From contig JAGKQI010000086.1 of the NCBI GenBank assembly GCA_018806915.1, positions 868,001-932,000 of the forward strand: a DNA stretch of 64,000 nt, read 5' to 3'. The notes beneath the pieces were generated by a model. That model made no database searches. It saw nothing but the letters and a program-made list of their open reading frames with translations, and was not told the DNA's origin. This document shows, one piece after another, positions 2,284 through 28,852 of the stretch. This DNA is from Phytophthora colocasiae (lineage: Eukaryota > Oomycota > Peronosporomycetes > Peronosporales > Peronosporaceae). A program made the translations under genes and the position numbers. Every line of letters starts with the position of its first letter. Position 1 is the stretch's first letter.

Positions 2284-2656
2284 ACGCAGAGAAGGCGACG
2301 TGACCGGGTCACAACGCCGAGATCGCGGATGCTGATCTGGATGTCTATCTGGACCGGATGTGGAGATTTTATATTTTCTGTGGAGATTTTATATTTTTCT
2401 TGTATATGCATGTGAAACCGGAGTGATTGGATGGAAGGTGTGGAGATTTCGAAGATGCTAAGTGGGATCGAAACTGTGGAGTAAGTATGGAGAAGAACGC
2501 TGGTTTTGAAGCTGGAAAGATTACGTGGAATTGAAAAGAGGCTGAGCTGGAGTCAGGATCGCGTGGCGAAGTACCGGATCGTGATAGAGAATATGTAAGC
2601 GTGCTGACCGACTCCGGGCTCAGCTGATCACCTCCGGACTGGTCGAGATCGCGGGA
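2284..2656. other. Spacer between convergent pol and aORF of E1
   Basis: There is no gene. An AT-rich island near 2361-2410 holds a 20-bp unit (TGGAGATTTTATATTTTCTG) present twice in tandem. Equivalent AT-rich stretches sit at the same place in E2 (about 40005-40025) and E3 (about 50055-50085). The position between two converging genes suggests 3'-end formation signals for both strands; this is inference. Confidence 0.45.
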
Positions 2657-5349
2657 TCAGGGAGTCCCAGGAGGTGTAGGTGGAGCAGGCGGGTTAAACT
2701 TGTTTTCGAGCCGTGGGATCTGCCGGGACGGGTGATCTGCCGGCCGATCGCGGTAATGGTTGCGCCAAGGGTCCTCCTGATCGCATTCTGCCAACGCAGA
2801 GATCAGATCGGTGGGCTCCGGTCGGTTCAGAGTCGGCTGGGCCAGGTTAGCCATTCGAGAGGCCGATCCGGGGTACCAGTATACCCGATCACGGATAGTA
2901 GGGAAGTGCAGGAAGTAGGGATCGAGCAGAAGATCGATGTCCGCCCACATCGCCCTCATCATGAGCAGGAATCGTCCCAACAGCAGCCGCCAACGTTCTC
3001 CGGTACGGCTACGCCGTTGCCGACGCTCGAGGTAATACCGACGGAGATCAGGATCAGCTTCATACATCGCCTTCGTGATCTCGAGATAATGGGTCGATTC
3101 CCAGTAGGCCTGCAGGTGATCTGACTCGAAGGCGGCGTAGGCATCCGCGATCTGCCCCAGCATGGTTCCAGCACGACGATGTAGACCGAGATCGAAGGTG
3201 AGGGGGGCCGGTCGGTTGCGGAGCACCTCCCAAGGTCGGGTAGCAAGTAGGGCCTGCACGTTGGGCCCAGTGATCAGGCTAGCCAACCAACCGACCCCGG
3301 CTCGGGAAGGGCGATTAGCCGGTGATCTCGCGGGGTAGAGGAATCCGGGAGGTAGCAGCAACCTCTTGGACAATGTGGAAGGATCATACCGACGATCGCC
3401 AAAGTTCCGACGAACATCGGCTCCCACGGGAAGACATCACCAGCCGCAAACTGCCGGACGGTCGCAGACCCGGGAATAGACGAGCTGATCGCGAACAGGG
3501 GAGGGTGCAGCTGGGGCGTGGCGAGCCGCCGGGAGAGCCGCCACCGGAGATCCCCACCGGGAGGGCTCCCGCCAGCTGGACTACCCCTCGGAGACCCTGA
3601 GGAGAAGTGATTGGAGTCTGTGGGGAACTGCCGCCCGGAGGTGTCGGCTGCGCCGGAGGCGTCGATGGAGCAGGCCCCTTGATCACCGGATGCTGGAGGA
3701 GGATTTCCATGCCGGCGGTGCCACGACAGCGATCGGAGTATCGTAGCCCGGAAGAGCGTCGTCGGATCCCAGCGCCAGAATCCTCCGCGTCATCGTCATG
3801 CTCTGGATCGGGTTTACGTTTGGACCGATCCGAGCCACCCTTCTTCGGGGAAGGTGCTTCCACGGTCACTTGCGAGGTGGCCTGGGTGCGATCTGCTTCC
3901 TCCGCATCCGGCCCAGTCGGGATCGCGGGTTCAGGACCCAGATCGAAGGGGTCTGGGCTTTCCTCGTGCTTTTCTTCGAGCTCGGTCGCCTGGGCCTGGC
4001 CACCGGGTTGGTCTCCAGCTGGAACATCAGGTGGGGCCGCGTCGTGATCGGCCAGGAGGCTCCGTCCGCGAGGTCTTGTGCGGGGGCGATGTAGCAGGAG
4101 ATGGGGGCGGACTGAGAGCACGTTTGACCCCCCGTTCATCTTGAGCAGCGCGGAGCCGAGACACCATTTCGGTCAGGACGTTGGTGGTCGCCATTACGTC
4201 ACCTTCTGCCTGATCGTAGTTCTCCTGCAATGCCTGAAGACTCGCTTCCAACTCCTGCACTTCGGCATGGGTACCGATCAGATCATCCTCTACGACAAAC
4301 AGAATATGAGTGATCATGGTCAGGTGGAGGATCTAGACTATATGCGCACCTAGACGAGTGGATCGTTGTCGCTCGGCGCTGAGATCCGCCTGTGCTCTGG
4401 TCACGATCTGCGAACGCTTGGTCTCGTTCCACGAGTAGGCGATCCGCTCCGAAGTGACTCGGTTCAGTTCGGAGTTAGCGTGAGCGAGTTGATCGGTGGC
4501 TGGGTCACGTTCACCAGCGATACTGGTCAGGAAGCGATCGCTCGGGCGGAGTCCGCCAAGGCTCGATCTCGCTCAGCCAGGGCCAATCGGGTGGGAGCCC
4601 CTGTCGAAGGCGTGGGGCTGGAATCCAGTTGGAGATGTGCAAGATCAGCCGAGATCGGTTGTAGCTGGCCTTGGCAGTGATGGAGTCTTGCTTCGCCTCA
4701 GCCAGATCGCAAGCATGGATCCGGGCTTCCGCCTGGAGATCCTGGATCTCGTTGGTGGCTTGTTCCACCTCTTCGGTCAGACGATCCCTGTCCTCTGTAG
4801 CTCGATCTAGGTCTGCCTGGGCAGAGTTGAGACGCCGCGCGAACTCGTCGCGTTCCGATCGGAGCTGGTGAACCTGCATACGCAATCCATCGAGATCAGA
4901 GGCTTCCTCCGCGAGATCAGCGATCTCGCGCTCCAGACTGCGCAATCTCGCCCTGCTGGTCTGCCCGGAACCGCTCCATGGCGTCGACATGCGCCCGAAG
5001 TTCCATGGCTTCACGACTTAGTTGATCACGTTCGCGCACCAGGCGATCCACCCTGGACTGCCCGGCATCGGCCCAGCCTCATCGGATGAGAGCGGGCGTG
5101 CCGTGGTCTGGAGCCGGACCCGACGAACGTCGCGAGATGTCGGAATGGGGAGATGGCGGAACGTCAGGGGATCTTGGGGAATCGGGAGGTGTAGGCAAAT
5201 AATCGCTCCAGGATCACTTCCTTGCTGGCTCATGGAGACTGGAAGGGATCCGTTGGTGGTGGTCGAAGTGTTGTCAGGGTGACTTGTGCCTTGGGCTGAA
5301 GATTGGAGAATGAGACCTGAAGTGGACCGAGACGGACCAACTTGCAGGC
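2657..5349 (-). pseudogene. E1 antisense gene (aORF), coiled-coil plus conserved C-terminal domain
   Basis: An opposite-strand gene lying tail to tail with pol and starting just inside the 3' LTR. The N-terminal part (about 5350-4510) includes a strong heptad region (ADLDRATEDRDRLTEEVEQA). The middle (about 4140-3400) is rich in Pro, Gly, Asp and Glu. The C-terminal part (3427-2657) is the best conserved: WEVLRNRPAPLTFDLGLHRR, YAAFESDHLQAYWESTHYLE, then DIDLLLDPYFLHFP. The WESTH core recurs in E0, and weaker matches occur in E2 and E3. Several frameshifts separate the parts. I do not recognise the family. A gag-like or structural role is possible but unproven. Confidence 0.7.
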
Positions 5350-5350
5350 T

Positions 5351-5359
5351 GGGGGCGGA
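5351..5359 (+). other. E1 polypurine tract
   Basis: GGGGGCGGA immediately precedes the LTR start TGTGGTG. The same tract precedes the 3' LTRs of E2 and E3. It is absent in front of the LTRs at 28980, 41469 and (on the minus strand) 58770, which marks those as 5' LTRs. Confidence 0.8.
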
Positions 5360-6692
5360 TGTGGTGAAGCGCGAATAAGAAATCCGAGAAAAGGCAACGT
5401 CAGGCCCTAAGAGAGTCGGATCAAGCGACAGGGGCCTCTGGCGAAGCAAGATGTCAGTTGATGACCCCAGATTGCGCGAACGATGGCTGACGAATGGATC
5501 CAGATCGATGTTCGTCTGGATCTCGCCAGCGATGAATGGATGGCGTCTTGGTCAAGTGAGACTAAGTGATTGGAGAACCCGTCGTGCGGTCCCGCGTGGC
5601 GGCTCAGGGTCGGAGGAGAAAAGGGCGCCTTGCCTGAGGTCGCATGAGAAGGAGATCAAGGCGACAGAGGGTCGGGATCGGTGTGATCTATGGTGGGCCG
5701 GTGACAACATAACCGTGAGATGCTGCCGAGGGGACCTGATGGCAGTGTTAGTCGCGTGGGGAGTGGTGATCAAGTCTGGGAAGCTCAAGACCTGGAATGT
5801 CGACGACGCAGGCACGCGAGATCAAGTATGAAGGCTGCTGATCGGGATCATTGTTCAAGACGGTGAACCAAGATCGATGACCGAGATGGTTGATCGAGAT
5901 CGGCTGATCGCCAGATCGGCTGATCGCCAGATCGGCAGATCGAGATCGCGATCAGGGGTTAGGTGAGATCAAGATCGAAGATCGGAAGGGCAGCTGTGTA
6001 GCCGGATGTCAGGTAATCGTAGGATAGCAGATGAGGATGGGGCTAGTAGACATAGGAATAACCAATATAAACAGAATCGAATTTGCTCTGGACATCACAA
6101 GTGCCTTCGTTTAAGACCGGAACTGGGAATTACATTGGCCCCCCGGCATCAAGAAGGTAAGGAGAAGAGATCTAGCATAGAGGTTAATTCTGGATAATAC
6201 ATTGGCCAGTTTTACCCTATCTAGTGATCTATCCTTTACGTGCGAACTACGGATCGGAAGGAATTGGCTGCTTGCCTGACGATCTCGTCGACTCTCAACC
6301 CATCAAGACACCCGCTATAGGAAGCGGCAAGCATCGTAAAGGAAGGATCAGATCCCCAACATTGGACCTTTGGAAGACCTGGATCGAAGACCAGGTGACC
6401 GGATCAAGGCTCGAGAACTCGCCTGTGACCCGGATCAACCCCTCCGAGGTAGAGTGAAGTATTCCCACGCTATCTCACACCCCCTACGTCACCCAAGACA
6501 TTCTTCTCGTCCCAAGACATCTTCAGAAGTCACCTGGAAGAGCGTAACCCGCCTACCGACGGGTACACAAGGTGAACACTACACGCAGCAAGATCACGGA
6601 TCATCGGGGGCCCCTCCGTTAGTCGGTGTCTGGGCGCAAGTGGCGATCGCGATCGGCCTCAACCAGATTTTGGCCAGATCCGCTCCACCACA
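5360..6692 (+). repeat. E1 3' LTR (LTR A)
   Basis: Begins TGTGGTGAAGCG and ends CCGCTCCACCACA, a 13-bp terminal inverted repeat with one mismatch in the family consensus. It is about 1.33 kb long. It contains a degenerate GATC-rich repeat tract near 5870-5960, a conserved block from about 5997, and the motif TGGGCGCAAGTGG near 6631 that is shared by all copies. It is followed without spacer by E0 sequence. Confidence 0.8.
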
Positions 6693-7134: not shown

Positions 7135-7303
7135 AGCCGAGGTGGTGGATCTTCCATTGGTGAGGGCGCTCGCCAACGTGGAAGAAGAAGACTGGCAGCC
7201 TACTGCGAGTGGACGCACTGTGTATTTACATTTTGAAAAAGAGAAAGGTGACCTCTGAGCGGGGATCGGATGCCGGCTAGATCGATGCCCGAGCACTTAT
7301 CAA

Positions 7304-7611
7304 TTGGATCCTTGGGTTCTGAAGTCGGATCCTCGGGTTTTGAAGTTGGATCCTTGGGTCCTATGGCGGGATCCTCGGATCTCTGAGTTGGATCCTTGGG
7401 TTCTGGAGTTGGATCCTTGGGTTCTGGAGCTGGATCCTTGGGTTCTGAAGTCGGATCCTTGGGTTCTGGAGTTGGATCCTTGGGTTCTGGAGTTGGATCC
7501 TTGGGTTCTGGAGCTGGATCCTTGGGTTCTGAAGTCGGATCCTTGGGTTCTGGAGTTGGATCCTTGGGTCCTAAGGCGGGATCCTCGGATCTCTGAGTTG
7601 GATCCTTGAGT
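7304..7611. repeat. 21-bp tandem repeat with a BamHI site in each unit
   Basis: About 14 units of GGATCCTTGGGTTCTGGAGT plus one base, varying mainly at the last bases. The unit is a multiple of three, so frames stay open on both strands (DPWVLEL on plus, RTQGSNS on minus). I treat these as repeat shadows and not as genes. It lies between the E0 chromodomain and aORF, where E1 has its AT-rich spacer. 7135-7303 and 7612-7776 hold nothing recognisable. Confidence 0.9.
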
Positions 7612-7776
7612 CCTAAGGCGCACTATCGTTTCTTGGACGATTGAAGTTAGAGTGTGCGGTTCCTGAGTGAAAAAGCCTGAGTGGACGAGAAGAATATATG
7701 GGGTTAAGTAACGCAGCCTACAGAGGTTGGGATCTGGCAGCGTCGGGATCGAACCCCGGCAGCGAGTGGACGAACT

Positions 7777-14600: not shown

Positions 14601-15060
14601 TGTAACGGGGTTACACGTACAAGTGGTTGTACCACTTGTAACTCTAACAGTTATCCTAACTGTTAGAGGTTGGAAACGGGCCTCAGACCTTGGTGTGCTG
14701 TACACACCAATGGCTACATGGGCGAACCACATTATTGGGTGGTTCGTGTGCATTTGTGCATATTATTGGTAGAAAGTAACGGATTTCTACCAATCACTGA
14801 GCAGAGTTTCAGCCAACCACACGTTGGCAGACCCTTTAGAAATAGATAACAAACAGTTTTAGGAGGTCCATAATTGGTTTATGCCAAATTCAATAACAGT
14901 TCTCATTTTACGGTATTTTGCAGTTTAATTTAGTTATATTTGATTTAATTAAACTTATTTAAATAAGTATACTTAAATTATGTCTATTCTAATTGCACGC
15001 TTCCTCATACACGTAAGCGCACGTGTACGCCATCTAATAGGTCTAGGTAGACCCATTACA
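14601..15060 (+). repeat. H 5' LTR
   Basis: TGTAACGGGG...CCCATTACA (termini TGTAA/TTACA). Carries strong hairpins, for example a 12-bp arm pair with a 3-nt loop at 14642-14668. In the AT-rich part it has overlapping palindromes at 14944-14953, 14953-14968 (16 bp perfect) and 14964-14975 (12 bp perfect). The AT-rich tract (14870-15000) is the likely promoter/polyadenylation zone. The other LTR is at 28162. Confidence 0.9.
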
Positions 15061-15109
15061 CCTGGTAGCACTTTTTAGTCCGTCCCACGACCGACTGCTG
15101 TTCGTTTGT
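15061..15109 (+). other. H leader with candidate PBS
   Basis: Two bases after the LTR comes TGGTAGCAC, which starts with the TGG expected of a tRNA primer site. I cannot name the tRNA. The second H copy at 28650 lacks this leader. Confidence 0.45.
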
Positions 15110-16096
15110 ATGGAGTCATACGAACGCGGGGTAGAGAACCCCCCAATGGATGAGGGATCCACTGGGACCCCTCACATGTCCGTGACGCGCACGGACTGTG
15201 CCCACCTGTCAGATCCAGAGTGGGAAGCTCTCCAAAGACTTTCACAAGTCATTGGAGAGGCAGCGGTAGCGACGATGCTTCGTACGCTATCGCCGACAGA
15301 GCAACACGGTGTTGCTCTGGGGTACATTGTTAAGGAGCAACGAGATGTTGCTGCCTCGGTGGCTTCTCCGAAGCCACGCGTGGAGTCGTTGAAACTCCAC
15401 GTGAGTACCTACACGGGGAAGGAGGACGAGACCCTCCTTCGTTGGCTTGTCGAACTTGACACAGCCGTTGCGGCTCGACGTATCGTCGATCCGATGTCGA
15501 AGGTCGCGTTCGCCATGTCATGTCTTGGCGAACGTGCGAGGAGTTGGGCCTATGGGCGCCGACTCTCGGATCCTACGTGCTTCGGCACGTACGAGGCGTT
15601 CAAAGAGGAGCTCAAGCTTGCGTTTGAGCCCCCGAAGAACGAGTTCAGATCGAGAGCGGAGTTTCTCGATCTGCAGCAGGGCAAGGGTGAAGTTCACACC
15701 TTTGTCCAGCGTGCTCGATACTTGGTATCGAACATAGTGGCGAACCCGATCGACGAGGCGATTAAGGTCGTCGCGTTCATGAAGGGACTAAGAGATGGTC
15801 CCGTCAAGACGTACCTCTTCCGAGAGTATCCGAATACTCTCGAAGAGGCGATCAGCCTTGCGATGCAAGAGGAGTTTAGCTGGCGTCAAGCTAAACTCCA
15901 TGCGACCGCGCCGAAGCCGGCGCGTCCTGTTGTGAAGACGGGAGGTACGGAACCTATGGACCTCTCGAGTGCTACGACTGCTGGTCAACAGCAGCGTAGG
16001 AATAGCAAGGTTCGATGTTACAAGTGTGGTAACATCGGTCACTACGCAGTGAGTGCACAGCGGGCGGGCGTTCAAAAAAACGCCAAGGACCAGTAG
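15110..16096 (+). CDS. H gag with zinc knuckle
   Basis: A 328-residue structural protein, intact. The central Retrotrans_gag-like domain shows LLRWLVELDTAVAARRIVDP, ARSWAYGRRLSDP and EFLDLQQGKGEVHTFVQRAR. The C-terminal knuckle CYKCGNIGHYAVSA has lost its last Cys. The start MESYERGVENPP follows the leader at the usual distance. The codons are woven into hairpins, including 15298-15318 (arms of 10, 1-nt spacer), 15574-15591 (7-bp stem closing a TTCG tetraloop) and 15871-15899 (arms of 11). Protease follows after about 120 bases in another frame. Confidence 0.9.
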   Translation: MESYERGVENPPMDEGSTGTPHMSVTRTDCAHLSDPEWEALQRLSQVIGEAAVATMLRTLSPTEQHGVALGYIVKEQRDVAASVASPKPRVESLKLHVSTYTGKEDETLLRWLVELDTAVAARRIVDPMSKVAFAMSCLGERARSWAYGRRLSDPTCFGTYEAFKEELKLAFEPPKNEFRSRAEFLDLQQGKGEVHTFVQRARYLVSNIVANPIDEAIKVVAFMKGLRDGPVKTYLFREYPNTLEEAISLAMQEEFSWRQAKLHATAPKPARPVVKTGGTEPMDLSSATTAGQQQRRNSKVRCYKCGNIGHYAVSAQRAGVQKNAKDQ

Positions 16097-16924
16097 GCGC
16101 GGGGCGTCCTACTGGTGATGCAGTCTCGCGTGTCGAGCTTGGACACGCGACAATGAGGACTGCTGCCCCCAGCGAGAAAGCTTCTCGCTGTGGCTGCAGA
16201 TGACAAGCCAGAACCTTGTCATCACTGAACGGGATGTCGAAGAGAGTGAACTCTCTTCGTGCCCTAGTGGACTCGGGCGCGTCGAACAACTTTGTTCGAC
16301 AGGGAAGTCTTCGAAGGTTTGACTTCGAAGAAGCCGACACGCCTCGCGGCGTGTTGGAGGTGCGGTTGGCAACAGGTGCCACCGTGAGGACTGAGAAGCG
16401 CGTAGTCCGTGTGCGCTTCCCTTACAAACGAAGGACGTTTGTAGAAGATCTTATCGTCTTGGATCTAGACGATAAGTTCGACTTGGTATTAGGCATGCCG
16501 TGGCTTGCACGGCATGACCCGGTGATCAACTGGGAGAAGCGTACACTCGTACGCTTCAACAACACATGCGCGACAGAGAGCGATGGACCTGTCAGTGCTG
16601 CACATGCACCAGGCGGTGCATGTTATCCCCCAGTTGAGGCAGCAGCGTCCGCCGCTGCCTCCGATCGCCGCCGGCGACCGCCAGCGACTCAGGGAGTCGT
16701 TGGGAGAAAATGTGTGTCGACTCAGAAATCTGAGCCGAAGGGTCGCGGTCACATGAGTGATGGTCAGGTGAATGTAAATCACCTGACGCATAAACATCTG
16801 AATGATGTTTGTCACATGAGTGATGGTCAGGTGAATCGCATTCACCTGAGAGAAGGTAAAATATCGGTATTACCGGTATCCTTGGAGGTACTTCAAGCCC
16901 CCAAGGGTCGCGCCGACGACGTCG

Positions 16925-17195
16925 CGTCAACTCTGGGAGTTGACGAAGCAAATAATATTCGGGGAACCGAAAGGCGTGCGTCAGCTCTGGGAGCTGACGC
17001 CACTGACGCATCGCTGCTAGTTCTGGGAACTAGCGATCGTGCGTCAGCTCTGGGAGCTGACGATATGTGTACAAGCGAACACTCGCAAGCGCAGGAAGCT
17101 AGCGAGAGCACGTCGACTCCGGGAGTCGACGATGCGGTTGCTTCATCCGCTCCGGGAGCGGATGGAGGCGCAGTGGTTCAGGGAACCGACTGCGC
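16925..17195 (+). repeat. Cluster of hairpins with shared core in H linker
   Basis: Inverted repeats at 16925-16945, 16979-16999, 17016-17034, 17042-17062, 17111-17131 and 17144-17164, all centred on TCTGGGA or TCCGGGA (stem ends TC/GA, loop TGG or CGG), plus a related one at 17168-17195. The arms differ (CGTCAAC, CGTCAGC, GCTAGT, CGTCGAC, CATCCGC) while each stays complementary to its partner. Confidence 0.95.
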
Positions 17196-17578
17196 GGCAG
17201 GAGTGCTGGCGGTTGCAAACGCCCAGCACCCGAACAACCTGCGTGCTCACGTGCAGCAGCGCTGCACGCGATGAGCGGCACTCAAGCCGGGCTTGATAGT
17301 GCGAGTCAGCGGAAGGAATCCGCTGACGATAGCGATAACGTCCCGTCCAAGGTGCGATGCCTTGGACGTGGAGCACCTGGAGCCGGGCTCCACGGTAGAC
17401 CTTCGCGGCGCAAGCTCAGGGAGCTGCGCGAGTCTCAGTCCGGGACTGAGATGGGTGTATCTGCAGTGCAGACACCGAGTGTCGAGACGTTGAACGTCTT
17501 GGCACGTACTGGTACTGGGCTACAGTACCAGAGGATGCGGTTGGAGAATCCGCCGACGAGTGCGTTGGCGTTGACCGC

Positions 17579-17583
17579 ACTTC
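17579..17583. other. Target-site duplication of N, left
   Basis: ACTTC immediately before the left LTR of N, identical to the five bases after the right LTR. Five bases is the normal Gypsy duplication. Confidence 0.95.
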
Positions 17584-17974
17584 TATAGCACTTGAGCTCT
17601 CTAGAGTAAAAAACGAAGTGTCATTTAGCAAGTTAGACCTCGAACAGCACTGCCCTATAAGTCCTTGCGTCCAGCGCCCTTCATCCGATCGCCGTCACCC
17701 TCCTCCGACGTGGCAGCGTGTGCCATCGTTCACTGCTGCCTTGCCCGCGCGTGCCGCTACGCCACTGCCGTTGAGCTGCTTGGCCTCGTGGATCGCCGGC
17801 ATGCGCGCTGCACAGGACTCGTTCGAGACTCGCGTTCCTTCCCGCCGTGGATTCGCAACTGGGATTGTGCTCGCCGGGATGGATGCCGTCAACGGACGGG
17901 GTGACTGAAAAAAAAAGGCGCACCTTGCTCACGGCCGCGGTGTCGTCTGGAATCAAGGTGCCCCGCGCACTACA
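17584..17974 (-). repeat. N 3' LTR
   Basis: On the minus strand it runs TGTAGTGCGCGG...AAGTGCTATA. It differs from the other LTR chiefly by lacking about 30 bp. The termini are TGTAGTGC and GTGCTATA, an imperfect inverted pair that does not end in the usual CA. Confidence 0.9.
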
Positions 17975-17985
17975 CTGCCCCCCAA
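17975..17985 (-). other. N polypurine tract
   Basis: On the minus strand TTGGGGGGCAG lies directly before the 3' LTR start TGTAGTGC. Confidence 0.7.
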
Positions 17986-18103
17986 GACGACCCGCGCCCC
18001 GCAAAAGTTGAAAAATACCAAAATGAAAACGTGAAATGTGTGACTTGTGCATGTGTGACGTGTGAAAGTGTGACTTGTTACACCGTCAAGTTGAAGTTGG
18101 CCG

Positions 18104-19294
18104 TTACAGAAGAGCTTCCAGCTCAGGAGCGTCCACCGATTGCACGTACTGCGTGACCAGAACAGGGACGTCGTAATAGATAGATGCGAACGGCTCCCAT
18201 GAGTTCTCCTCGCCTTCAAGGCCCCGCCAGGCCACATGCAGTTGCCATTCATTGGCAGCGTTGTCAAAACGGTGGGCCACAATAGCCCGCACCCCCAAAA
18301 TGATACCTTGGGTAGCGACATGCTCGCGGATCTCCGTGGTAGCCCCCAGCTCGGCATCACAGTAATGCTTGAGGCGCGAGCCATGGACCTCAAACTCATC
18401 TCCCGTGAGGAGATGACTCACGACGAACGAGTGAGAAAGCGCCTGGGCCACACGGAAGGGTCCAACCCAGCGAACCAGCAGTTTATGCTCGCGCATGCGC
18501 GTATCCACGCGAGACCACAGCACGAAGTCTCCGACTTCAAAGTTGCAAATCTGTCCCTTCGAGCGGGCCAGCTCATATGCCCGGCGCCGCTCCTTGCGGT
18601 CGGTCACCTCCAAATGCATGGCAGCGAGGTGCTCCCTGAGGGCATCGAGGTGCGGCGCAACAGCCGCAGAGTCGAAAGTCACCAAGCGGGTATCCCCATC
18701 AACCGGCACCGCCACCACATCCAGCATAGACGGGGCTGGTAGCCCCGTGAAAAGCTCTACCGGGGCGTGTCCTCCCAGAGAAGCCACAGCAGAATGGTTG
18801 AGGTTAGCCTGGACGAGCGGTAGGAGGTAGGGCCAGTTACGTGTATCCAAGTTCAGCTCCATTAGCATAACTCGTAGGACCTGGAGGATGTCACGGTTGA
18901 CACGTTCAACCGTGCCATTTATCCAGGGTGTGTAGACCGGCACGAACTTGTGCACGGCTTTCAGACGCTCAGCTAGCTCAGCCATGACAGCAGCCTTGAA
19001 ATGGCTACCGTTGTCCGACACCCACGTGGCTGGGAGCCCAAAGCGCTTGAACCAATCAAGAATGGCTTCAACAGCCGTAGCACTCGTCGCCGAGTCGGCA
19101 GCGACCAACTCACAGTAGTGAGTGAGCTCGTCCTTGAGGACGAGCACATACCGAGCAGAGCCGTAGGATTCTCCAAGTACCAGGTAGTCCATATGTAGAC
19201 ATTCATTTCGAGCAATAGCTGTCGACTTCGGGCCCCACTGCCTCTGAACCAATTTGCCACCTTTCACGTGCTTGCAGAGTAAGCAGCCACGCAA
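18104..19294 (-). pseudogene. N integrase core, tether and chromodomain
   Basis: Part of the zinc finger (GCLLCKH), then the DDE core: CLHMDYLVLGES, TWVSDNGSHFK and NGTVERVNRDIL. Next come an SH3-like tether (VRWVGPFRVAQALSHSF) and a C-terminal chromodomain-like segment (WQLHVAWRGLEGEENSWEPF). This 396-residue stretch is intact, but it is separated from the upstream pol by an in-frame TGA at 19307-19309 that splits the zinc finger between its His pair (HCGIQGHRGG) and Cys pair. Confidence 0.9.
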
Positions 19295-19306
19295 AAACCG
19301 TGAAAC

Positions 19307-20086
19307 TCAGGCCCTGAGGTTGCCCACAGCAAACCGCGCTTCCAGCGCAGCTGCCATCACGTCTCCACCACGGTGCCCCTGGATGCCACAGTGAGCAATG
19401 ACAAAGAGTCGCTGCATCATCTCACGAGCTTCACTGGGTATCCACAACTTTCCCTCCACTCGCACTAGTCCATCAGTATCTTCTTCGGCTGGAGCTACTG
19501 CACGATAGCTGCGTTGCATGCTGCGATTAGAGTCATCTGTAGGCCACACAAAGTCGTCGTGCTGTAGTGGACGGAGAACTGACACGTTCCTGTTGCTGCG
19601 TGTAGTGACACGCTTCGCGCTCGCGGTGGTGTCAGAGACATCAGTGCCAAGTGGCACCTGAATGTATGCCACCGATAAGTCGTGCGCTCGAATGCGGAAA
19701 TCTTTCACTCCGAAGTCCACGTCTGTCGACCACTCATCGGAATCCCTAGCGCCGCGCTCTCCACATACCTCCGCTTCCGAGTCTTGTACATCATCGCACA
19801 GGAGAAACACGCGCTTTGCTACACTTGCCGATGGACTAGAAGCAAGGGTCCGCCGTCCCCAACGGGAGATCAGGTCCGCCCATACGTTCTCCTCACCGCT
19901 GATGTGCTCTATGACATATCTGACACCGACGAGTTGCAACGCCCACCGCTGCAACTTCCCTTGCAGGTGGGGCTTTACAGTCTTGTCAGGAGAGAAGATG
20001 AACACCATATTCGCGTGGTCGCAGTATATATGGATACCTTTCTCCCGCTCCAGTAAGTAGGCAAGATCGGCGCATGCCCTGACCAC
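19307..20086 (-). pseudogene. N RNase H C-terminal part and start of integrase
   Basis: Continues pol in another frame after a frameshift near 20000-20100. IHIYCDHANMVFIFSPDKTV carries the last RNase H Asp, then RWALQLVGVRYVIEHISGEE and NVWADLISRW. The segment ends in the His pair of the integrase zinc finger and the TGA at 19307. Confidence 0.85.
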
Positions 20087-21680
20087 GGGGTACGCTTCTT
20101 TTTTCGACGATCGACCAGTTCAATTGTGCTCCCGTGAACTGTCCTCTGCGACACACTAACAGTTGATGTGCTTGTTCCGTCACTGACACAGCTTCATCCC
20201 AGTGCAACACTTGAGAGACCACGATGGACCACCCCGTGTTTGAAGCGTCCGTGAACAGGCAAACATTGGCCTCCTGGTCGATAAAGTGCTGCTTGTTGGA
20301 CGTGGCAATCAGATCCACCGCTGCTCGGAAAGCTGCAGCATCATCATCCGGCCACTCGAGATCGACACCCGTTAGCTGGCTCTTGCGCCGACCATGACGC
20401 GCCATCACCAGCTCGAGTTTGGCCTGCAAAGGCTGGATGGTCCGAGCGTAGTCCACAAGAGAGTCCCTGAGCCAATTGGCTGCACAGAGGAACTGCTGCA
20501 GAGCCGCAGCTGTCGGCGGTAGTTGTAGACCGACTAAAGCTTCGAGGCGCTCCGGGGAGTGCTGAATTCCTTCTCCATCCACAACCTTGCCACACCACGT
20601 CACCTTCGTGGCAAAAAGCACGCACTTCTTTGCGTTCAGCTTCAACCTACGCGTGCGAAGCACCTGAAAAAACTGCTCCAACTTGGCGAGGTAGTCCTCA
20701 GCCGATCGCGCGAACAGTAAAATGTCGTCTATCCAGATGAGGACGCTCACATACAGCATGCTCCGAAAACAATCCTGCATTTGCAACTGAAAATGCATAG
20801 CAGAATCACTTGCACCTTGAGGAACTCGCGTGGGTGTGAAGACACCATCTTCCGTAACAAAGCTGAACAGTTCTTGGCTTGCCACGTCTAACGGAAGCTG
20901 CCAGAAACCCTTGAAGAGGTCGAATAGACCAAAGCCGTAAGCACCCTTGACACTTTGAATCACCGACAGCAAGTTGGGCGTGGCACCAGCCAGAGCAATG
21001 GTAACTCTGTTCACGGGTCGATAGTCGATAATACAACGAAAGTCCTCGCTGTGAGGTTTCACCACTGGAAGTGCAGGGCACGCCCACCTACTGTTGTTGT
21101 TGCGGCGAACAAGGCCATTGCGCTCCAGCTCTTGGACGAACTCACGCAGGAACTTCCGCTTAGGCTCAGAATACTTGCGGGCTCCGCTCCTGTAAGGTTG
21201 AGCATTAGGCTGGAGCCTCACCTTGAGCGGCTCGACATCGGCGGGCGGATCAGCCCCGATATGAACGCGCCAGACACCAGCGTACTTATAGACTAACGTC
21301 CTCAGCTTGCCAAGTAAAGCAGGGGCAAAGCCAGCACGCTTAGCATCATCTAACATCCGGTCTAAGTGCGCGTGGATTTCCACCATATCCACCTGAAATT
21401 CCAGCTCAACATAACTGCTTGTAACATCGTCTCCTTCGCCTTCGCTAACGCGTCCTCCATCAGCCAACTGTTCAAAGAGCCGATCAATGTCAATCCCGAT
21501 ATCCTGCATGGTCTTGCGGCCCAGCAAGAACTCGTCTTCGTTCCCATCGAGCACGAGGCACGAGACTCCCCGCAGATTCACCGGACCGGCAGCAGTGTTG
21601 ATCCGCACGTCCACCACCACCGAAGAACGACAGAGCATCTGCGCACCACCCGCTACTTGAACCTTCACTGGTGGCGTCAA
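19986..21680 (-). pseudogene. N reverse transcriptase and RNase H start
   Basis: RT motifs in order: LVRRNNNSRWACPALPVVKP, FRCIIDYRPVNRVTI, FGLFDLFKGFWQLPL, TRVPQGASDSAMHF and LIWIDDILLFA. The catalytic box reads WIDD where Gypsy elements normally have Y(I/L/V)DD; both Asp are kept. RNase H begins with VCLFTDASNTGWSIV. It is open for about 560 codons. The upstream frame is continuous with protease except for the TAA at 21690. The given start is only where the frame opens. Confidence 0.9.
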
Positions 21681-21689
21681 TGCACGGAC

Positions 21690-22121
21690 TTAAACCCGAT
21701 CAGAGAGCTCGACCAGCTCATCCACAATTGCCCTCGAGACAATGTTGCTGTCCGCTCCAGTATCTGGGCAAAACGGGACGTCCAGTACCTCGTTGATACA
21801 CATGCGTCGTCCGTGCTTGGACGAACCGGAGTACTTCACAGCCTTAGCACGTTCAAACCCATCCTTTCGTTTGTTGTCATGAAAGGCTTGAAGAGCAGCC
21901 TTCTTCTGCTCCTCCGACGCTGTGGGGCAGTCCCGCATCCAGGGACTCCCCTTGCACACCAAACAGCCCGCAGTCGGCGGTACAACTGGTTTTTTAGGCT
22001 GATCGGGTTTCTTGCGAGTCTCCGTGGGCGTAGCAGCCGCTGGTTTGCTGCTTCCCCCACCACTCTTGTTCACAGTAGTTTTGGGCTTCTCCGGAGCAGC
22101 CTTCTTCACCTCCTGTTGCAT
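21690..22121 (-). pseudogene. N zinc knuckle and protease
   Basis: Lys/Pro-rich linker, then a knuckle-like CLVCKGSPWMRDC with Trp at the usual His position, then the protease site FCPDTGADSNIVSRA. It is in frame with gag upstream (separated only by TAG at 22122-22124) and with RT downstream (separated only by TAA at 21690-21692). The original gag-pol was probably one frame. Confidence 0.85.
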
Positions 22122-22802
22122 CTAATGATAGTGCTGTTGCAACGACGCTCTAGTCACAATCAGTTCGTAGAGAGCGACATCGTCTTGCTTAACATGGTGG
22201 TGTGTCACTTCAGCGAGCCGCTGAATGTCCACACGCAGCATTGCCGGGGCGAGGTTTGCCATCAGAAGTTTGCAGCGTGTCTTCATTCGCTGCTGGCCAG
22301 CGGCATCCGTTACCTCGGCCCGACCGACCCAGGATGTCAGTCCGTTGTCGTCAACCAGCTTGTCGAAGCTGATGAAGTAGCTCGCGACGCGAGCGTGGAC
22401 GTCCCTTTCCGACGTGTCCATCCTCAGCCGCTCAGCAAACAACTTCTCCACGTCTGGGACGTGATTGTTCATGAGGCTGCCGGTCTTCCTCTCGATCTCC
22501 TCACGAAGGCTCTCCTCGGACAGCGCGAACACCTCGGTCTTGAATATATATCGCGCGAGATGCTCTAGAATTTGCGGCTCGATGGAGCTCTTGATGCTGA
22601 CCAGCACATTATCGTGCGCTTCACCGGTGGCCAGGCATCGCTCCCAAATCTTGCCTTCGTACTGGCGGCGATCGCACAGGAACGCCACCAAGCTGGGCTG
22701 GCTCCACTTGGTCAACTTCGGCGCCTTGATGAACTCGAACACCGGTGAAACCGCAGCCATTTCAATGTCGCCATCAGCATCACGTCTGCCGTCGTGCGCC
22801 AT
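22122..22802 (-). CDS. N gag
   Basis: A 226-residue gag-like protein (MAHDGRRDADGDIEMAAVSP; IKAPKLTKWSQPSLVAFLCD). It starts 26 bases inside the 5' LTR, the first ATG of the internal region. It ends in TAG followed directly by an in-frame ATG (TAG ATG CAA CAG). That layout could be suppression-type gag-pol expression or a simple nonsense mutation; no downstream readthrough structure was assessed. Confidence 0.75.
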   Translation of the reverse strand: MAHDGRRDADGDIEMAAVSPVFEFIKAPKLTKWSQPSLVAFLCDRRQYEGKIWERCLATGEAHDNVLVSIKSSIEPQILEHLARYIFKTEVFALSEESLREEIERKTGSLMNNHVPDVEKLFAERLRMDTSERDVHARVASYFISFDKLVDDNGLTSWVGRAEVTDAAGQQRMKTRCKLLMANLAPAMLRVDIQRLAEVTHHHVKQDDVALYELIVTRASLQQHYH

Positions 22803-22828
22803 TGCTTGTAGGTTGCTAAAGAATTCTT

Positions 22829-23249
22829 TATAGCACTTTAGCTCTCTAGAGTAAAAACCGAAGTGTCATTTAGCAAGTTAGACCTCGAACAGCACTGCCC
22901 TACAAGTCCTCGCGTCTAGCGCCCTTCATCCGATCGCCGTCACCCTCCTCCGACGTGGCAGCGTGTGCCAGCGTCCACTGCTGCTGCGTACGCGCGTGCC
23001 ATCGTTCACTGCTGCCTTGCCCGCGCGTACCGCTACGCCACTGCCGTTGAGCTGCTTGGCCTCGTGGATCGCCGGCATGCGCGCTGCACAGGACTCGTTC
23101 GAGACTCGCGTTCCTTCCCGCCGTGGATTCGCAACTGGGATTGTGCTCGCCGGGATGGATGCCGTCAACGGACGGGGTGACTGGAAAAAAAGGCGCACCT
23201 TGCCCACGGCCGCGGTGTCGTCTGGAATCAAGGTGCCCCGCGCACTACA
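22829..23249 (-). repeat. N 5' LTR
   Basis: Same sequence as the left LTR plus about 30 extra bases around 22970-23000 that partly repeat CGTGTGCCA/CGCGTGCCA. No TGG-type primer site follows it on the internal side; the internal region starts AAGAATTCTTTAGC. Confidence 0.9.
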
Positions 23250-23254
23250 ACTTC
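23250..23254. other. Target-site duplication of N, right
   Basis: ACTTC directly after the right LTR, matching 17579-17583. Confidence 0.95.
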
Positions 23255-24249
23255 CAACGATGAGTTGGAAGCGCTTCGCACGAGACTTGTACGATGGACG
23301 CATCGAACAAATTTGCATTCGCTCGGATATCGAGAGAGTGGAGCGCGAGGCCGAAGAGCTGAAGCAGCTCGTAGTCGATGGGATCACTGAGGGTGATGTC
23401 TCCCTCAGTGCGAAGACTAAGAAGCAGCGCTTCGAAGAGCAGAGTTGGGACTCGTTGAGGTCGAGTCCCTACTACGAAGTTCTGCGGGAGTACAAGGATG
23501 TACTCCCAGACGAGATTCCTTCGGAGCTTCCGAAGGACAAGGGCGTACAGCACGAGATTGATCTCGTGCCGGGCACGAAGTACTGTGTTACACGGCAGTG
23601 GCCACTGCCGCGTGAACAAGTTCAAGCGATCGACGACTTCTTTGAAAGTCGTCGTCTTGCAGGTCAAGTGCGGGAATCGAAGTCCCCGCACAGTGCCCCA
23701 AGGTTCTGTGTTAAGAAACCACAGGGCGGGTGGCGCATCGTTCACGCGTACAACAAGTTGAACGATGCGACGATACCGGCGCAGACGCCGATACCGCGAA
23801 AAGATGTTATCATCGATTCGATGGCCTTGAGAACTATCTTCAGTGCTCTAGATCTGCGTGATGGATTCTATCAGATCCTCATGCGTGAGAGGACATCCTC
23901 TCACTGCGGTAAACACTCAAGCGGTATGCTTTGGGAGTGGCTCGTCATGCCACAGGGGCTTAAGAACGCCCCTGCGACGTTCAATAGATGCGTGACACAT
24001 CTATTGCGCTCGGTGCGCGACTTCGCACCGAGCTACTTCGACGACGTGTTCGTCCACAGCCGGGCTGTGAACGGGAAGACGGACATTGAGATGCCCAAGG
24101 TGCATCTCCGGAAGCTGCTAGAGCTTATGAGGAAACATAAGCTCTATGCGAACCTGAAGAAGTGTATCTTCGGGGCGAGCGAGATACCCGTGCTGGGGTG
24201 TCTCGTGGGGAAAGACGGCGTGCGCCTGACCCAGAGAAGGTCAGAGTGA
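23255..24249 (+). pseudogene. H reverse transcriptase
   Basis: Resumes H after N. RT motifs: EIDLVPGTKYCVTRQWPLPR, SPHSAPRFCVKKPQGGWRIV, IFSALDLRDGFYQIL, MPQGLKNAPATFNRCV, SYFDDVFVHS (YFDD-type box with both Asp) and KKCIFGASEIPVLGCLVG. Open for more than 300 codons. Hairpins continue inside the codons: 23593-23610 (18-bp perfect palindrome), 23982-24006 (arms 9), 24008-24033 (arms 10) and 24120-24145 (arms 10). It stops with a frame change at about 24245. Confidence 0.9.
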
Positions 24250-25130
24250 TCAATGAATGGCCCACGCCATCAATGTAAAGGAACTGAGGCAGTTCCTTGG
24301 GCTTCCTGCACGTACTTGTGCAAGTACGTGGACAACTATGCGGGCAAGATTCGCCCGTTGTCACAGCTTCTTAAGAAAGAAGCTGAGTGGATTTGGACGA
24401 CCGAGTGCGAGGAGGCATTCGGTGCAGTCAAGCAGGGCTAGACTGAAGCGCCGATCGTGGCCGTGGCGGACCAAGATCGTCCATTCCACGTAGTGTGCGA
24501 TGCATCCGACTTTGCAATCGGATGTGCATTGATGCAACACGATCACGAAGGGCGTGATCGTATAGTCTACTATCAATCGCGTCAGCTGAAGCCAGCTGAG
24601 CGTAATTATCCCCGTACATGACAAGGCTCCTTGCCATGAAGTATGCACTCGCAAAGTTCCGAGTGTATCTACTTGGGAGTAGACCGTTCGTGGTCTATAC
24701 AGACCACGCATCATTGCGTACGGCGATTAAGTCGCCGCACATCTCGCAACGCATGGCGAGATGGTTGTCCTTCTTCGCGGAGTACAACTTCCGGGTGGAG
24801 TACAAACCCGGAAGACTCAATGTAGTGGCCGACGCGTTATCGCGTCGACCTGACTATGCGGAGACGGTCGACGCCAACGCTGTTGGCGTCGTGAGGACAA
24901 GTGTGCCGTCGTCAACGTTGATTGACGACGTGAAGAAATTTGCGTATGCAAGGGATGCAGACGCGAAGGGGCTGCTGGAGTTCCTCGCGGCACCTTCCGA
25001 CGTGGCACGTCGGAAGCTAACCCCTCATCTTCGAGCTCGTGTACACCGCTATCATTGTACACGAAGGATAATGTTGTACAGTGCAGTAGACGACAATGCG
25101 GATCGCATTGTCGTTCCGAATAAATCATGA
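24250..25130 (+). pseudogene. H RNase H, frameshifted
   Basis: The first part (24250-24610) is in shifted frames. The second is open from 24618: RPFVVYTDHASLRTAIKSP, MARWLSFFAEYNFRVEYKPG and NVVADALSRRPDY, the usual end of Gypsy RNase H. It continues into the spacer before the integrase. Hairpins include 24309-24330, 24364-24385, 24788-24814 and 24869-24891 (arms of 9-10). Confidence 0.85.
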
Positions 25131-25136
25131 CCTCGG

Positions 25137-25800
25137 TTGAAGATCATGTTCGAGTATCACGATGCCCCACGGCAGAGGTGTCGGGTCGTGAAGACATACA
25201 CTCTTCTCACGCGTGACTTCTACTGCCACCACCAGTACAAGTGGGTGCGCAAGTACGTACGTGCTTGCGAGGTTTGTCAACGCGTGAAGCCTGCGCAGTT
25301 CTCGCGAGCTCCTCTTCAATCACTACCGACTCCGTCAAGTGTTGGCAGTCCATGTCCATGGACTTTGTCTTCAGTCTTCCGCCTGACAGCAAGCGGAGGA
25401 CAGGCATCGTTGTCTTTATGGACCGATTCAGCAAGATGGTTCATCTTGCTGCCGTCCCAACTACTGTTACAGCCGCGCAGACTGCGCGACTGTTTGTTCG
25501 ACATGGTGTTCAAACACCGCGGCATGCCGCTCGACATTGTGTCGGACCGTGATCCACGCTTCACAGCGCGGTTCTGGCAAGAAGTGTTTACACTTCTTGG
25601 TTCCTGATTATCAATGTCGACTGCGGATCATCCGCAGACGGACGGACAGACCGAACGTGTCAACCGTGTATTGGGTGACACGTTGAAAACTACGCTCACT
25701 CGTTCCCGCATTGGAGCGAGTGCTTGCCGATAGCAGAGTTTGCCATCAACAACTCGGTGCATGCCTCGACAGGGCATACACCGTTCTACGTGAATGTCAT
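25137..25800 (+). pseudogene. H integrase, frameshifted
   Basis: Zinc finger: EYHDAPRQR...RACEVCQRVKP. DDE core split over frames: SMSMDFVFSLPPDS, LDIVSDRDPRFTARFWQEVF, and then the Glu motif around 25620-25670 (translation ADHPQTDGQTERVNRV) in a third frame. Frame changes fall near 25330, 25500, 25607 and 25700. Confidence 0.85.
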
Positions 25801-26940
25801 GAGGCATCACGATTGCCGAGCATGCTCGGCGGGGTAGCTTCCTCGCTTAAGTGGGGGAGGATCTGCGGTTGCGTCCGAACAACCGCAGAATGCAACTGAT
25901 AGCGGCACACTATCAGCTGCGGTGACGCGTGCGACGTCTCGTTCGAGCAGGAACGAGCGCGCGATGTCTGTGCCGGGCACAGACGCGGGGAGATGATAGC
26001 GAGCAGGCAGGGCCTGCTGCTGACAAGGAGCGACAAGCTGAAAGGATTCAGCTCGGGTGCGCTATACTTTGTCCAGCGAAGACAAGCCGTCATACGGTTT
26101 TGTCAGGATGCTATCGCAGCTTCTGTCGATCGACAGAAACTGAACGCTGATACTGTTGGTTGAGGCAACACAGAACGAAAGGGTTCATTAGTTTTGTTAG
26201 CTACACAAAACCTACCTAGACATGCAGTGTCTGACTTTGGAGCAAGCAAGCTTGCTCCAAGATTCGATGAGCCGTTCAAAGTAGCTTTGAACGGCACGCT
26301 TGCTGCCTTTACTGCAATACCGGCTGGACATGGACCGTCAGCATGAGGCTCCACCCGACCTTCTACCGTCCGGGCGATTGGGGAAAACCGTACGTGCATT
26401 TGGCACGGACTACCTAGGGTTGGTAGTCCGACTTCCAGGAAGTGCGAGAGGCCTGGAAAGGCCTTCTCGAGACCATCAACGCTGGTCGGTTAACCAGTTC
26501 ACTCTCGTCCCAACACCGGACGAGGTTCGAGGCTGATCTGAGGCTGCCTCGTAGACCTCAGCACACGGAGGACTGAACCTCCTGCTTCAGGAGCCGCTTT
26601 ATCTCCAGCGCTCTGTGTCTGCTCTCCAGCGCAGCAACTCGTGACCGTGCAGGGGCACGGTACGTCATAAATCATAGCGTTGACCATGCCCGGAGAGTGT
26701 TCCCACCCCCTCCGCCGCCGGTATTGCCGCGACTGCGCGTGGAGCGATCCCGCTGGATGGTGGAGCGGATTGTGGCTCATAAGAGAACAGCAGAACTCTC
26801 AAAGGGGTTCGTTTTTCGTATTCGTTGGAGAGGATTTCCTCCCCATCGAGATACATGGGGAGCCGCCGGAGACAATCACTGATGGAGGAGACGTTCCCGG
26901 AAATGGCGTGAACGTACAGGAAGCCCACCATAACTTGCAG
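25800..26940 (+). pseudogene. H integrase tail and chromodomain, heavily broken
   Basis: Fragments of the tether are readable (LAPRFDEPFKVALNG near 26250-26290). A chromodomain is readable at about 26730-26940: WMVERIVAHKRTAELSKGF, FRIRWRGFPPHRDTW. Stops and frame changes are frequent. Two 11-bp-arm hairpins lie back to back at 26237-26260 and 26271-26295. Confidence 0.7.
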
Positions 26941-28149
26941 GGGTAAGCCCTGCACGAGGAGTGCTGCGGTCGGCCACAGCACTCGGGCTCCCGCGTGGCA
27001 CAATATGCGACCACGGGCTCCTTCGATGTGAATCGGGTACGACGTACAAGCGTGTACCCCAGAATACTTTCTGAGAGACGTGTTGCCCATGGGTTGGCAA
27101 CACGGGCAGAAAGTGTGCCAAAGGGAATGGCACATGGGATCCCCCGCTTCCATGACTGATCCATGGAGGCGTTCACACTACCACGTGGCAATTAGTGTAA
27201 GTGTAGTAGCGATCGCGAGCCGCAGCAACGCGCGCTCGCGATACCAACTGCCTTCGGGTCTATGTTGAAGTTTTCAACAAAGGCGTTCCCACTGACAAAG
27301 TGCCTGCCACTCTGGCGCTGCTCTTGCCGAAGTCTTCTTCGCTGCATAGTACCAGAGCTCATGGAAAGGAGGCCCGATATAGTAGTCGCGTCTTTGAGTC
27401 TCCGGACTCCAAAGACAATCTCAACGGCGACGTCGTCGTCGTTGATACTGTTGCATGCGTACAAGCAGTATCGGGTTCGGTGGTGACTAGCACCTGGACC
27501 ACTCCATGGATCCTGTGCCTTATAGTAGGCATCCATGGTGCACGCACTGGATGGAGATCAGTGCGTGGAGCAGTCGGCGGCGCCCACTCAACATGGGAGA
27601 CGCTTCTGTCATCACTGCGCGGACGCTTCGAGCTTGAAGCGTCGAGACCTCAACACGAGGTCGTCGAGACCCCACAGAGTGGAGTTGGACGTGTCTTTCC
27701 AGACGAAGAACACGGGAGCGGAGGAGGCTTGTCATCAAGCTCTCCCTCCCCTCGACATCGTCGTCGATGCGTAGTCGACGATGTCTTCCGTAGTCCTCTC
27801 CAAAGAGTTCTTTGAGAGGAACAGCAGGGTGTTTGGTGTCCCTGCATAGGCGAAGAAGAAGTCTTCTTCGGCACTTGCTTCTCCTTGTGGAGAGCAGTGG
27901 TGAGTCGGTGACAGAGAGCTTCTCCTGTCCAGAACCACTGGAATACAGCAGTGCTAGTAGGCACTGCTGAGGGTTTCCCTGCTGCGGAAGCAGCAGGAGA
28001 GAACTTGCGCGTCCGCAGAAGCGGACGGAGACGTGAGCGTTGGCGAGTCCATTTGCAAAAGTGAACTCAGATTTCTCTTAAGAACTTGACGGTCTTATCC
28101 AAGTTCTGTTGATTGACAATATCCGAGACCGATACGTGGCGAAGATCTT
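26941..28149 (+). other. H 3' region, non-coding, hairpin-rich
   Basis: About 1.2 kb between the chromodomain and the polypurine tract. The longest open frame (27300-27815) has no recognisable domain, and its codons look like by-products of the hairpins, so I do not call a gene. Hairpins persist, for example 27622-27643 (arms 8). An unrecognised accessory protein cannot be excluded. Confidence 0.6.
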
Positions 28150-28161
28150 AACAGGGGATGG
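28150..28161 (+). other. H polypurine tract
   Basis: AACAGGGGATGG directly before the 3' LTR. Confidence 0.75.
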
Positions 28162-28649
28162 TGCCCAACGGGGTTACACGTACAGAGTGGTTGTACCACT
28201 TTGTAACTCTAACAGTTAGGAAACTGTTAGGAGGCTGGAAATGGGCCTCAGACCTTGGGTGTGCTGTACTTACAACCACAAAGGATGCATGGGCGAACCA
28301 CGACATTAAATTGGGTGGTTCATTGTGCATTTTCTGTGCACATATTATTGTGGTAGAAAGTAACGGGTTTCTACCAATCACTGTGAAACAGAGTTTCTGC
28401 CAACCACACGTTGGCAGACCCTTTCAGGAAATAGATAACAAACAGTTTTAGGAGGTCCATAATTGGCTTATGCCAAATTCAATAACAGTTCTCATTTTAC
28501 GGTATTTTGCAGTTTAATTTAGTTATATTTGATTTAATTAAACTTATTTAAATAAGTATACTTAAATTAAGTCTAATCTAATTGCACGCTTCCTCATACA
28601 CGTAAGCGCACGTGTACGCCATCTAATAGGTCTAGGTAGACCCATTACA
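28162..28649 (+). repeat. H 3' LTR
   Basis: Matches 14601-15060 over its length with scattered small insertions (488 against 460 bp). It starts TGCCCAACGGGG instead of TGTAACGGGG and ends CATTACA. Several inverted repeats seen in the 5' LTR are slightly broken here by single-base insertions. Confidence 0.9.
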
Positions 28650-28751
28650 GATGAGGGATCCGCTGGGACCCCTCAAATGTCCGTGACGCGCACGGACTGC
28701 GCCCACCTGTGTGATCCAGAGTGGGAAGCTCTCCAAAGACTTTCACAAGTC
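28650..28751 (+). pseudogene. Fragment of a second H gag
   Basis: About 100 bases matching 15149-15250 (codons of MSVTRTDCAHL...EWEALQRLSQV), joined straight to the LTR end without leader or PBS. It implies a second H copy or a recombination product that was later cut off at 28751. Confidence 0.85.
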
Positions 28752-28852
28752 AAGCGGCAAGCAACGAAAGGAAGGGACCGAATCCCGAACATTGGACTAT
28801 TGGAAGACCTGGATCAAGGACCAGGCCCCCGGATCAAGGCTCGAGGACTTCC
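28752..28852 (+). repeat. Inverted 100-bp piece of a GATC-family LTR
   Basis: Plus-oriented LTR segment beginning AAGCGGCAAGCAACG and ending CTCGAGGACT. In intact LTRs this segment follows directly after the segment found next to it in minus orientation, so it appears to be a local inversion within the X LTR. Confidence 0.7.

Follow-up and report, generated by a model that had tools for sequence, protein, structure and literature searches.

Element H, a Ty3/gypsy long terminal repeat (LTR) retrotransposon lying at positions 14601 to 28649 of a 64-kb stretch of the Phytophthora colocasiae genome (contig JAGKQI010000086.1, positions 868,001 to 932,000; hereafter the window, to whose full length all coordinates refer), carries short perfect hairpins in coding and non-coding sequence alike at a density nearly twentyfold that of shuffled sequence. 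Specifically, when perfect hairpins are defined by arms of at least 7 bp and a loop of 0-15 nt and are counted without overlap, the 8441 bp of H contain 131, against a mean of 6.9 in 30 shuffles, which amounts to one hairpin per roughly 50 to 65 bases in both the coding and the non-coding parts. Polymorphism among copies indicates that the stems are under purifying selection. RNA viruses are known to have ordered RNA structure throughout their genomes, the purpose of which is unsettled; H represents an extreme retrotransposon case that resides in the same cell as a weakly tiled sister family, H2, and untiled families, a natural contrast that makes the purpose of such folding directly testable. 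No retrotransposon tiled in this way was reported in the titles and abstract openings among the matches listed by a literature search, outside which most subscription papers fall.

Hairpin density in H and other gypsy elements

A first-pass annotation of this DNA had listed 21 inverted repeats in H, all 21 of which proved exact in coordinates and arm lengths, and had described the element as tiled end to end. Hairpins are indeed dense in coding and non-coding sequence, but the tiling is not continuous: perfect hairpins occupy 32-40% of each of two H parts rather than the whole sequence, the first half of the LTR holds 5 in 238 bp while its A/T-rich second half holds 2 weak ones in 222 bp, and an LTR element nested within H (17584-23191) is untiled, with 11 hairpins against 5.2±2.4 in shuffles (maximum 14). 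Among 1-kb bins, the ten holding H, some only partly, contain 8-21 hairpins each where 20 dinucleotide shuffles average 0.5-1.1, and the window outside H contains 65 in 49,848 bp (1.3/kb). Arms of at least 9 bp are present in 70 of the 131 hairpins, and the longest perfect stem measures 12 bp in this copy as well as in L013, another H copy. Regular spacing of the H hairpins was not found, their distribution being near random with P below 0.05 in one of five stretches.

In other copies of H, the excess persists against codon-preserving shuffles. Open frames of eight such copies hold 17.9-20.6 hairpins/kb, while 60 synonymous-codon shuffles of each gave means of 1.25-1.67/kb; other H loci overall, some of which extend past the element, range from 11.3 to 20.8/kb. 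When inverted repeats with arms of at least 10 bp and a spacer of at most 8 nt are counted as in a genome survey, they make up 67 bp/kb of the copy in the window, while pieces of two other copies reach 103 and 131 bp/kb; these values include spacers, and arms alone account for 57, 90 and 115 bp/kb, respectively. The survey, published in 2026 and covering 118,019 genomes, gives a eukaryote mean of 1.91 bp/kb and a maximum of 180 (PMC13155455).

To place H among its relatives, loci were drawn from the same genome (92.5 Mb in 105 contigs searched): 30 regions taken from among 150 that match a Pfam RNase H model, plus four further H2 regions, falling into three classes. The sister family H2, represented by 12 loci whose reverse transcriptase (RT) is about 65-77% identical over full-length matches, contains 251 hairpins in 37,138 bp (6.8/kb) as compared to 39.1±7.7 in shuffles. 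Thirteen loci of other gypsy families (L039-L046, L050, L058, L060-L062; RT about 32%) contain 8 hairpins in 42,858 bp (0.2/kb) against 24.7±3.5 in shuffles and thus lie below chance, a deficit that looks as if hairpins were avoided. Tiling is therefore a property of H and, in weaker form, of H2 among the loci examined. A single scan of viral contigs returned no relatives, and a scan of prokaryote contigs returned one distant gypsy-like match, on a contig filed under a marine Phycisphaerae metagenome-assembled genome (L085). Positions 1-6348 of this contig, which is probably eukaryotic contamination, encode a gypsy-like RT within an open frame of 2116 aa and are mildly hairpin-rich, with 17 hairpins against 6.3±2.3 in synonymous shuffles.

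Selection on stems, turnover of positions and loop inversions

Evidence for selection comes from polymorphism in two parts of H, the RT-integrase region and the 3' region. In an alignment of 39 H copies spanning RT to integrase, limited to columns beyond the hairpin array described below, with stems set in one copy, variants taken from the others and results averaged, stems make up 31.3% of columns and 30.6% of singletons, yet 16.2% of doubletons and 6.8% of alleles found in at least three copies. Loops, by comparison, make up 8.7% of columns, 9.4% of singletons and 18.9% of alleles in at least three copies. Fisher P values ranged from 7e-7 to 3e-5 in four single-copy tables, which were all that were run, and majority-defined stems over all columns gave 14 shared alleles in stems and 87 at unpaired sites versus 164 and 331 singletons, respectively (P 7e-5). 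Of 52 hairpin groups in the non-coding 3' region, 45 recur in at least 2 of 8 loci, many differing in the loop alone, and among seven copies (one near-duplicate removed) stems, loops and linkers have 0.019, 0.055 and 0.032 shared alleles per column, respectively. The scarcity of shared alleles in stems, set against a proportional share of singletons in the RT-integrase region, indicates purifying selection; provided that most singletons postdate insertion and most shared alleles descend through transposition, stems would be purged of variants in the active lineage.

Selection does not appear to distinguish between the strands, which fold to about the same extent. Among stems fixed in H, 87 are perfect and 19 carry one mismatch: G.T in 5, A.C in 5 and another in 9. 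Stem changes seen in at least two copies versus singletons stand at 7:49 when they make G.T and 8:61 when they make A.C, as compared to 146:331 at unpaired sites; both kinds are depleted (P 0.004 and 0.0009, respectively) and do not differ from one another (P 1.0). A preference for G-U as proof of RNA-level selection was accordingly rejected, as neither mismatches nor polymorphism display it, though the test is weak. Folding energy, computed for RT-integrase frames against eight synonymous shuffles each, exceeds the shuffles in H by 30-35% for the sense and 40-46% for the antisense strand (six copies), and in H2 by 1-7% and 2-9%, respectively (five loci); two other gypsy loci fall below zero. 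For two gene segments of the RNA phage MS2, the excess is 30-32% sense and 21-26% antisense. Of the causes put forward in the first-pass annotation, the first, selection for structure, finds support in the polymorphism data.

While density is kept between H and H2, the places of the hairpins are not. Between L013 and eight H2 loci, 0-1 of 13-36 compared hairpin centres are common, and between H2 loci 9 of 17 are common at 82% nucleotide identity (L053 and L047) and 0-3 at 69-75%. The refuting condition named in the first-pass annotation, that other copies lack the pairs, is therefore not borne out within H, whose copies have them in common, although H shares only density with H2. Conserved functional RNA elements at fixed sites were rejected on account of this turnover.

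Within H, a distinct kind of change affects the loops. Copies were compared with matching flanks, since inverted copies inside L012 and L078 probably inflate counts, and 12 exact reverse-complement loop pairs were found. Two of these differ at one base only, as expected by chance; the other ten, with at least two differences, occur at nine hairpins as compared to an expectation of 0.05, and at three hairpins both orientations are each present in at least two copies. An example is the plus-strand hairpin at 14642-14668 (arms 12, loop 3), whose centre, TATCCTA, is the exact inversion of TAGGATA in six other copies. Exact reversal or exact complement of a whole loop interior was found in no case, with short cores giving 2 and 4. 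Loop inversions with intact stems have elsewhere been ascribed to template switching (PMC8794818), and those in H argue that the arms meet in the cell and that strands switch across hairpins, of which they form a natural record.

Changes on both sides of a stem are rare. In the RT-integrase region, 10 two-sided cells in 5 column pairs retain Watson-Crick pairing and 3 do not pair, against 299 one-sided cells among 616 pairs; in the 3' region the counts are 3 and 6 against 116 one-sided, and a looser count yields 5 compensatory pairs. The covariation among copies that the first-pass annotation had looked to is consequently scarce. Two of the five two-sided Watson-Crick pairs flank a one-base loop (columns 772/774 and 869/871), apparently within the array at 16901-17240. 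Unequal divergence of the two arms was not beyond chance in any of five comparisons with H2; against two distant gypsy loci it was seen with L058 (P 0.03) and not with L041. Template switching, another cause suggested in the first-pass annotation, thus appears to operate on the hairpins, as the ten exact loop inversions indicate, but hardly looks like the main source or guardian of the stems: it inverts loops, while no rebuilding of stems by it was observed, and arm copying as their main origin is unsupported given the slight or absent extra protein divergence of stem codons, the lack of arm asymmetry against H2 and the few two-sided changes.

The hairpins also appear to have been reconciled with protein coding. 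Amino-acid identity between H and H2 in stem and unpaired codons, respectively, is 0.68 and 0.66 to both L053 and L055, 0.64 and 0.63 to L047, 0.58 and 0.62 to L071, and 0.58 and 0.63 to L072, and the phase that pairs third with third codon positions is under-used in several H frames (7 of 41 in L013, 5 of 48 in L019), though not rare in all (18 of 64 in L035, 15 of 50 in L022). Similar conservation of stem and unpaired codons, together with the under-used third-third phase, argues that the hairpins were fitted to the protein rather than the reverse, apparently being built mostly via synonymous sites. The contrary view, that the protein sequence had been accommodated to self-complementarity, is unsupported.

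Candidate explanations and closest known systems

It is plausible, although we stop short of calling it probable, that the 11-21 perfect hairpins/kb of H, with both strands folding upon themselves, shield its RNA and complementary DNA (cDNA) from pairing with small RNAs and complementary strands. Neither positions nor loop sequences being conserved, selection would act on the local folding of either strand as such, at any place and through short stems. The agent may be oomycete RNA silencing, in which RNAs of 21 and 25 nt are directed against transposons: with stems of 7-12 bp, H would be guarded from pairing with small RNAs and from forming sense-antisense duplexes, while remaining below the length of duplex cut by Dicer. 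Small RNAs of Phytophthora infestans are distributed along gypsy elements, matching them in both orientations (PMC3522703), and transposons are the principal origin of 25-nt RNAs in three Phytophthora species (PMC3804510). In its fullest form, which we regard as possible and rather doubtful, this proposal would make H the first known retroelement whose entire genome, genes included, is a strand-symmetric string of hairpins under selection, that is, silencing armour written in synonymous codons, escalated from the weakly tiled H2 and sometimes flipped by polymerases that leave inverted loops behind.

Several observations weigh against shielding. Inverted repeats, together with tandem repeats, are reported to yield the most small RNAs per Mbp in P. 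infestans (PMC3804510), so the hairpins might instead feed silencing. Compensatory changes within H are few, and across H and H2 almost no hairpin is comparable because positions differ. Stem changes that make mismatches other than G.T and A.C are less depleted (14:54), and the G.T/A.C comparison has little power, given that four RNA phages pooled show only 18 G.T to 13 A.C. In the 3' region, singletons per column are also lower in stems (0.100) than in loops (0.150) or linkers (0.158), with stems taking 0.20 of singletons against 0.28 of columns, which makes this set less clean, and the polymorphism argument assumes that singletons mostly arose after insertion and that shared alleles were mostly passed on via transposition. 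In predicted folds of L035 and L013 compared with three shuffles each, long unpaired runs are not clearly fewer in the sense strand (4 against 2-5 and 1 against 3-5, respectively); the antisense strand has 6 against 4-11 and 2 against 8-12. Finally, near-continuous helices of at least 16 bp with small defects occur about equally often in L035 and L013 (two per copy, including one in L013 that spans 20 bp) and in L053 and L041 (three per locus), so that avoidance of long helices is unsupported.

Alternatively, the hairpins may act at the DNA level, either in the single-stranded cDNA made by reverse transcription or, once the element is integrated, as cruciforms, for instance by protecting or ordering the minus strand; we consider this unlikely. 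Strand symmetry, with equal numbers of fixed G.T and A.C mismatches, and an antisense folding excess larger than the sense one speak in its favour, and the ten loop inversions suggest that arms meet during DNA synthesis or recombination. Complementarity also ends near the smallest loop possible in a folded strand: with a loop of 3, the closing bases pair in 5 of 20 cases, about chance, and with a loop of 4 the outer pair is formed in 11 of 27, somewhat raised. The chance-level complementarity in loops of 3 led to rejection of palindromes as binding sites for a protein on double-stranded DNA. To our knowledge, however, LTR elements have no replication step that would call for hairpins in such numbers, well above one hundred, and for a cruciform to extrude, arms of 7-12 bp are short.

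Compaction of the sense RNA, in which genomic RNA would be folded for packaging or nuclease resistance as in RNA phages, likewise seems improbable. The sense excess is like that of the MS2 segments, and stems are kept while loops vary. Yet tolerance of G-U would be expected, and changes making G.T are as strongly depleted as those making A.C; the antisense excess surpasses the sense excess, the opposite of MS2; and because loops vary most, no fixed coat-protein loop motif is present.

Quite unlikely, in our judgment, is a mutational ratchet whereby template switching by RT makes and repairs perfect hairpins and selection merely removes harmful ones. Both the origin and the upkeep of RNA hairpins have been attributed to template switching in one proposal (PMC8794818), the inversions at nine hairpins and the recurrence of both orientations at three speak for its activity in H, and Watson-Crick stems and position turnover are compatible with it. 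Such a process should nevertheless overwrite codons, and stem codons are conserved about as well as others (as against L053 and L072, above); it should leave arms unequally diverged, which was the case only with L058; and it should produce many two-sided changes, of which few were found. Chance or composition as the cause of tiling is virtually excluded by shuffles that contain about 11- to 25-fold fewer hairpins and by the near absence of hairpins in the 13 other-family loci of similar G+C.

On our best reading, the folding of H resembles the genome-scale ordered RNA structure (GORS) of RNA viruses, but would be denser, more perfect and housed in a retrotransposon. GORS is described as sequential stem-loops along the genome with a strong folding excess, poorly conserved pairing positions and less variable paired sites (PMC7642675). 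H likewise displays folding energy far beyond shuffles in its RT-integrase frames and a high hairpin density along the element, poorly conserved pairing positions relative to H2 (at most one common centre), and paired sites that vary less among copies. It differs in being an integrated retrotransposon of a cellular genome rather than an RNA virus associated with host persistence, with pairing here computed from sequence; in stems that are mostly perfect, short and strand-symmetric; and in a sense excess above 23.4%, the highest recorded according to PMC7642675, where shuffles and fragment size differ. RNA phages (MS2, Qbeta, GA, PP7) share dense local stems in coding sequence, and in MS2 a similar sense excess, but hold 1.7-4.5 perfect hairpins/kb as compared to 11-21 in H; their stems with one mismatch outnumber perfect ones (71:49), whereas perfect stems predominate in three H pieces (141:55), and folding favours the sense strand in MS2.

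Viroids are non-coding circular RNAs with a fold different from that of H. They resemble H in that a compact self-fold has been suggested to help them evade RNA silencing (PMC3185485). H shares inverted loops on intact stems with template-switch RNA hairpins (Monttinen and Loytynoja, 2022; PMC8794818), which are described as sporadic events in RNA genes, while H has ten in one family and most of its stems do not look copied. Chronos is, like H, a Ty3/gypsy LTR element of Peronosporales and carries a chromodomain after integrase (PMC5348765), a domain to which H has a weak match. Unlike H, Chronos possesses a second, archaeal-type RNase H (PMC5348765); in one H copy (L035), only RT_RNaseH models were found between RT and integrase by Pfam search at E ≤ 0.001. 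The word hairpin is absent from the main text of the Chronos paper (PMC5348765).

Anatomy of element H

Pfam profiles and LTR repeats identify H as a Ty3/gypsy element with the order LTR, gag, protease, RT, RNase H, integrase, LTR, all on the plus strand. The 5' LTR (14601-15060) begins with TG and ends with CA, can be aligned to LTRs in 12 of 14 other loci tried, and matches the 3' LTR at 99% identity between 14839-15060 and 28428-28649. The 3' LTR (28161-28649) was delimited by self-repeat comparison and by LTR alignment with other loci. Across their full lengths, the two LTRs of the window copy are separated by 33 substitutions and 29 gap columns, most of which fall within the first, hairpin-rich half, and the 3' LTR contains several small insertions without counterpart in 12 other loci.

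The leader and gag region (15061-16096; 12.5 hairpins/kb) includes matches to Retrotrans_gag (15509-15796) and Ty3_capsid (15401-15871), and is followed by the protease region (16097-16900; 21 hairpins/kb) with RVP_2 at 16258-16548. Next, at 16901-17240, lies a tandem array of hairpins in coding frame, whose stems differ while a loop of TGG or G recurs, as in CGTCAACTC-TGG-GAGTTGACG. The nested LTR element at 17584-23191 is on the minus strand, is bounded by repeats at 17584-17915 and 22829-23191, and bears long minus-strand open reading frames that appear pol-like by eye. Beyond it are the RT domain (23710-24201; RVT_1, E 6e-20) in a region with 16 hairpins/kb, the RNase H domain (24394-24785; RT_RNaseH_2 and RT_RNaseH), which is divided between two frames in the window copy, the integrase zinc-binding domain (25134-25292; Integrase_H2C2, E 3e-8), and the weak chromodomain match (26754-26864; PF00385, E 3.8e-5, 24.0 bits, short of the curated threshold of 25.1). 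The 3' region beyond the chromodomain (26901-28160) holds 13.5 hairpins/kb.

Reading frames of the window copy are broken, while many other copies have long open frames. No target-site duplication was found around the window copy, whose flanks (CTAAT and GATGA) are unequal, and directly after the 3' LTR, positions 28650-28752 are a 95% copy of the start of the H leader and gag (15149-15251) minus the LTR-adjacent stretch. The missing duplication and the leader fragment as 3' flank suggest that the locus was rearranged or, alternatively, that a second, truncated H is present.

Among 2520 candidates from a first look at the genome, at least 150 RT matches to H were scored, with identities of 87-100%, and the closest named relatives of the H RT, at 82-86% identity, come from Phytophthora species. 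Gypsy RTs elsewhere usually carry the motif YIDD or YLDD. The corresponding motif in H and H2 is YFDD (L013, 1501-1962). A Pfam search of the H2 locus L071 gave no match in any of three frames. Elsewhere in the window, positions 7264-7662 form a tandem array with a 21-bp period, comprising 13 overlapping register copies of 147 nt.

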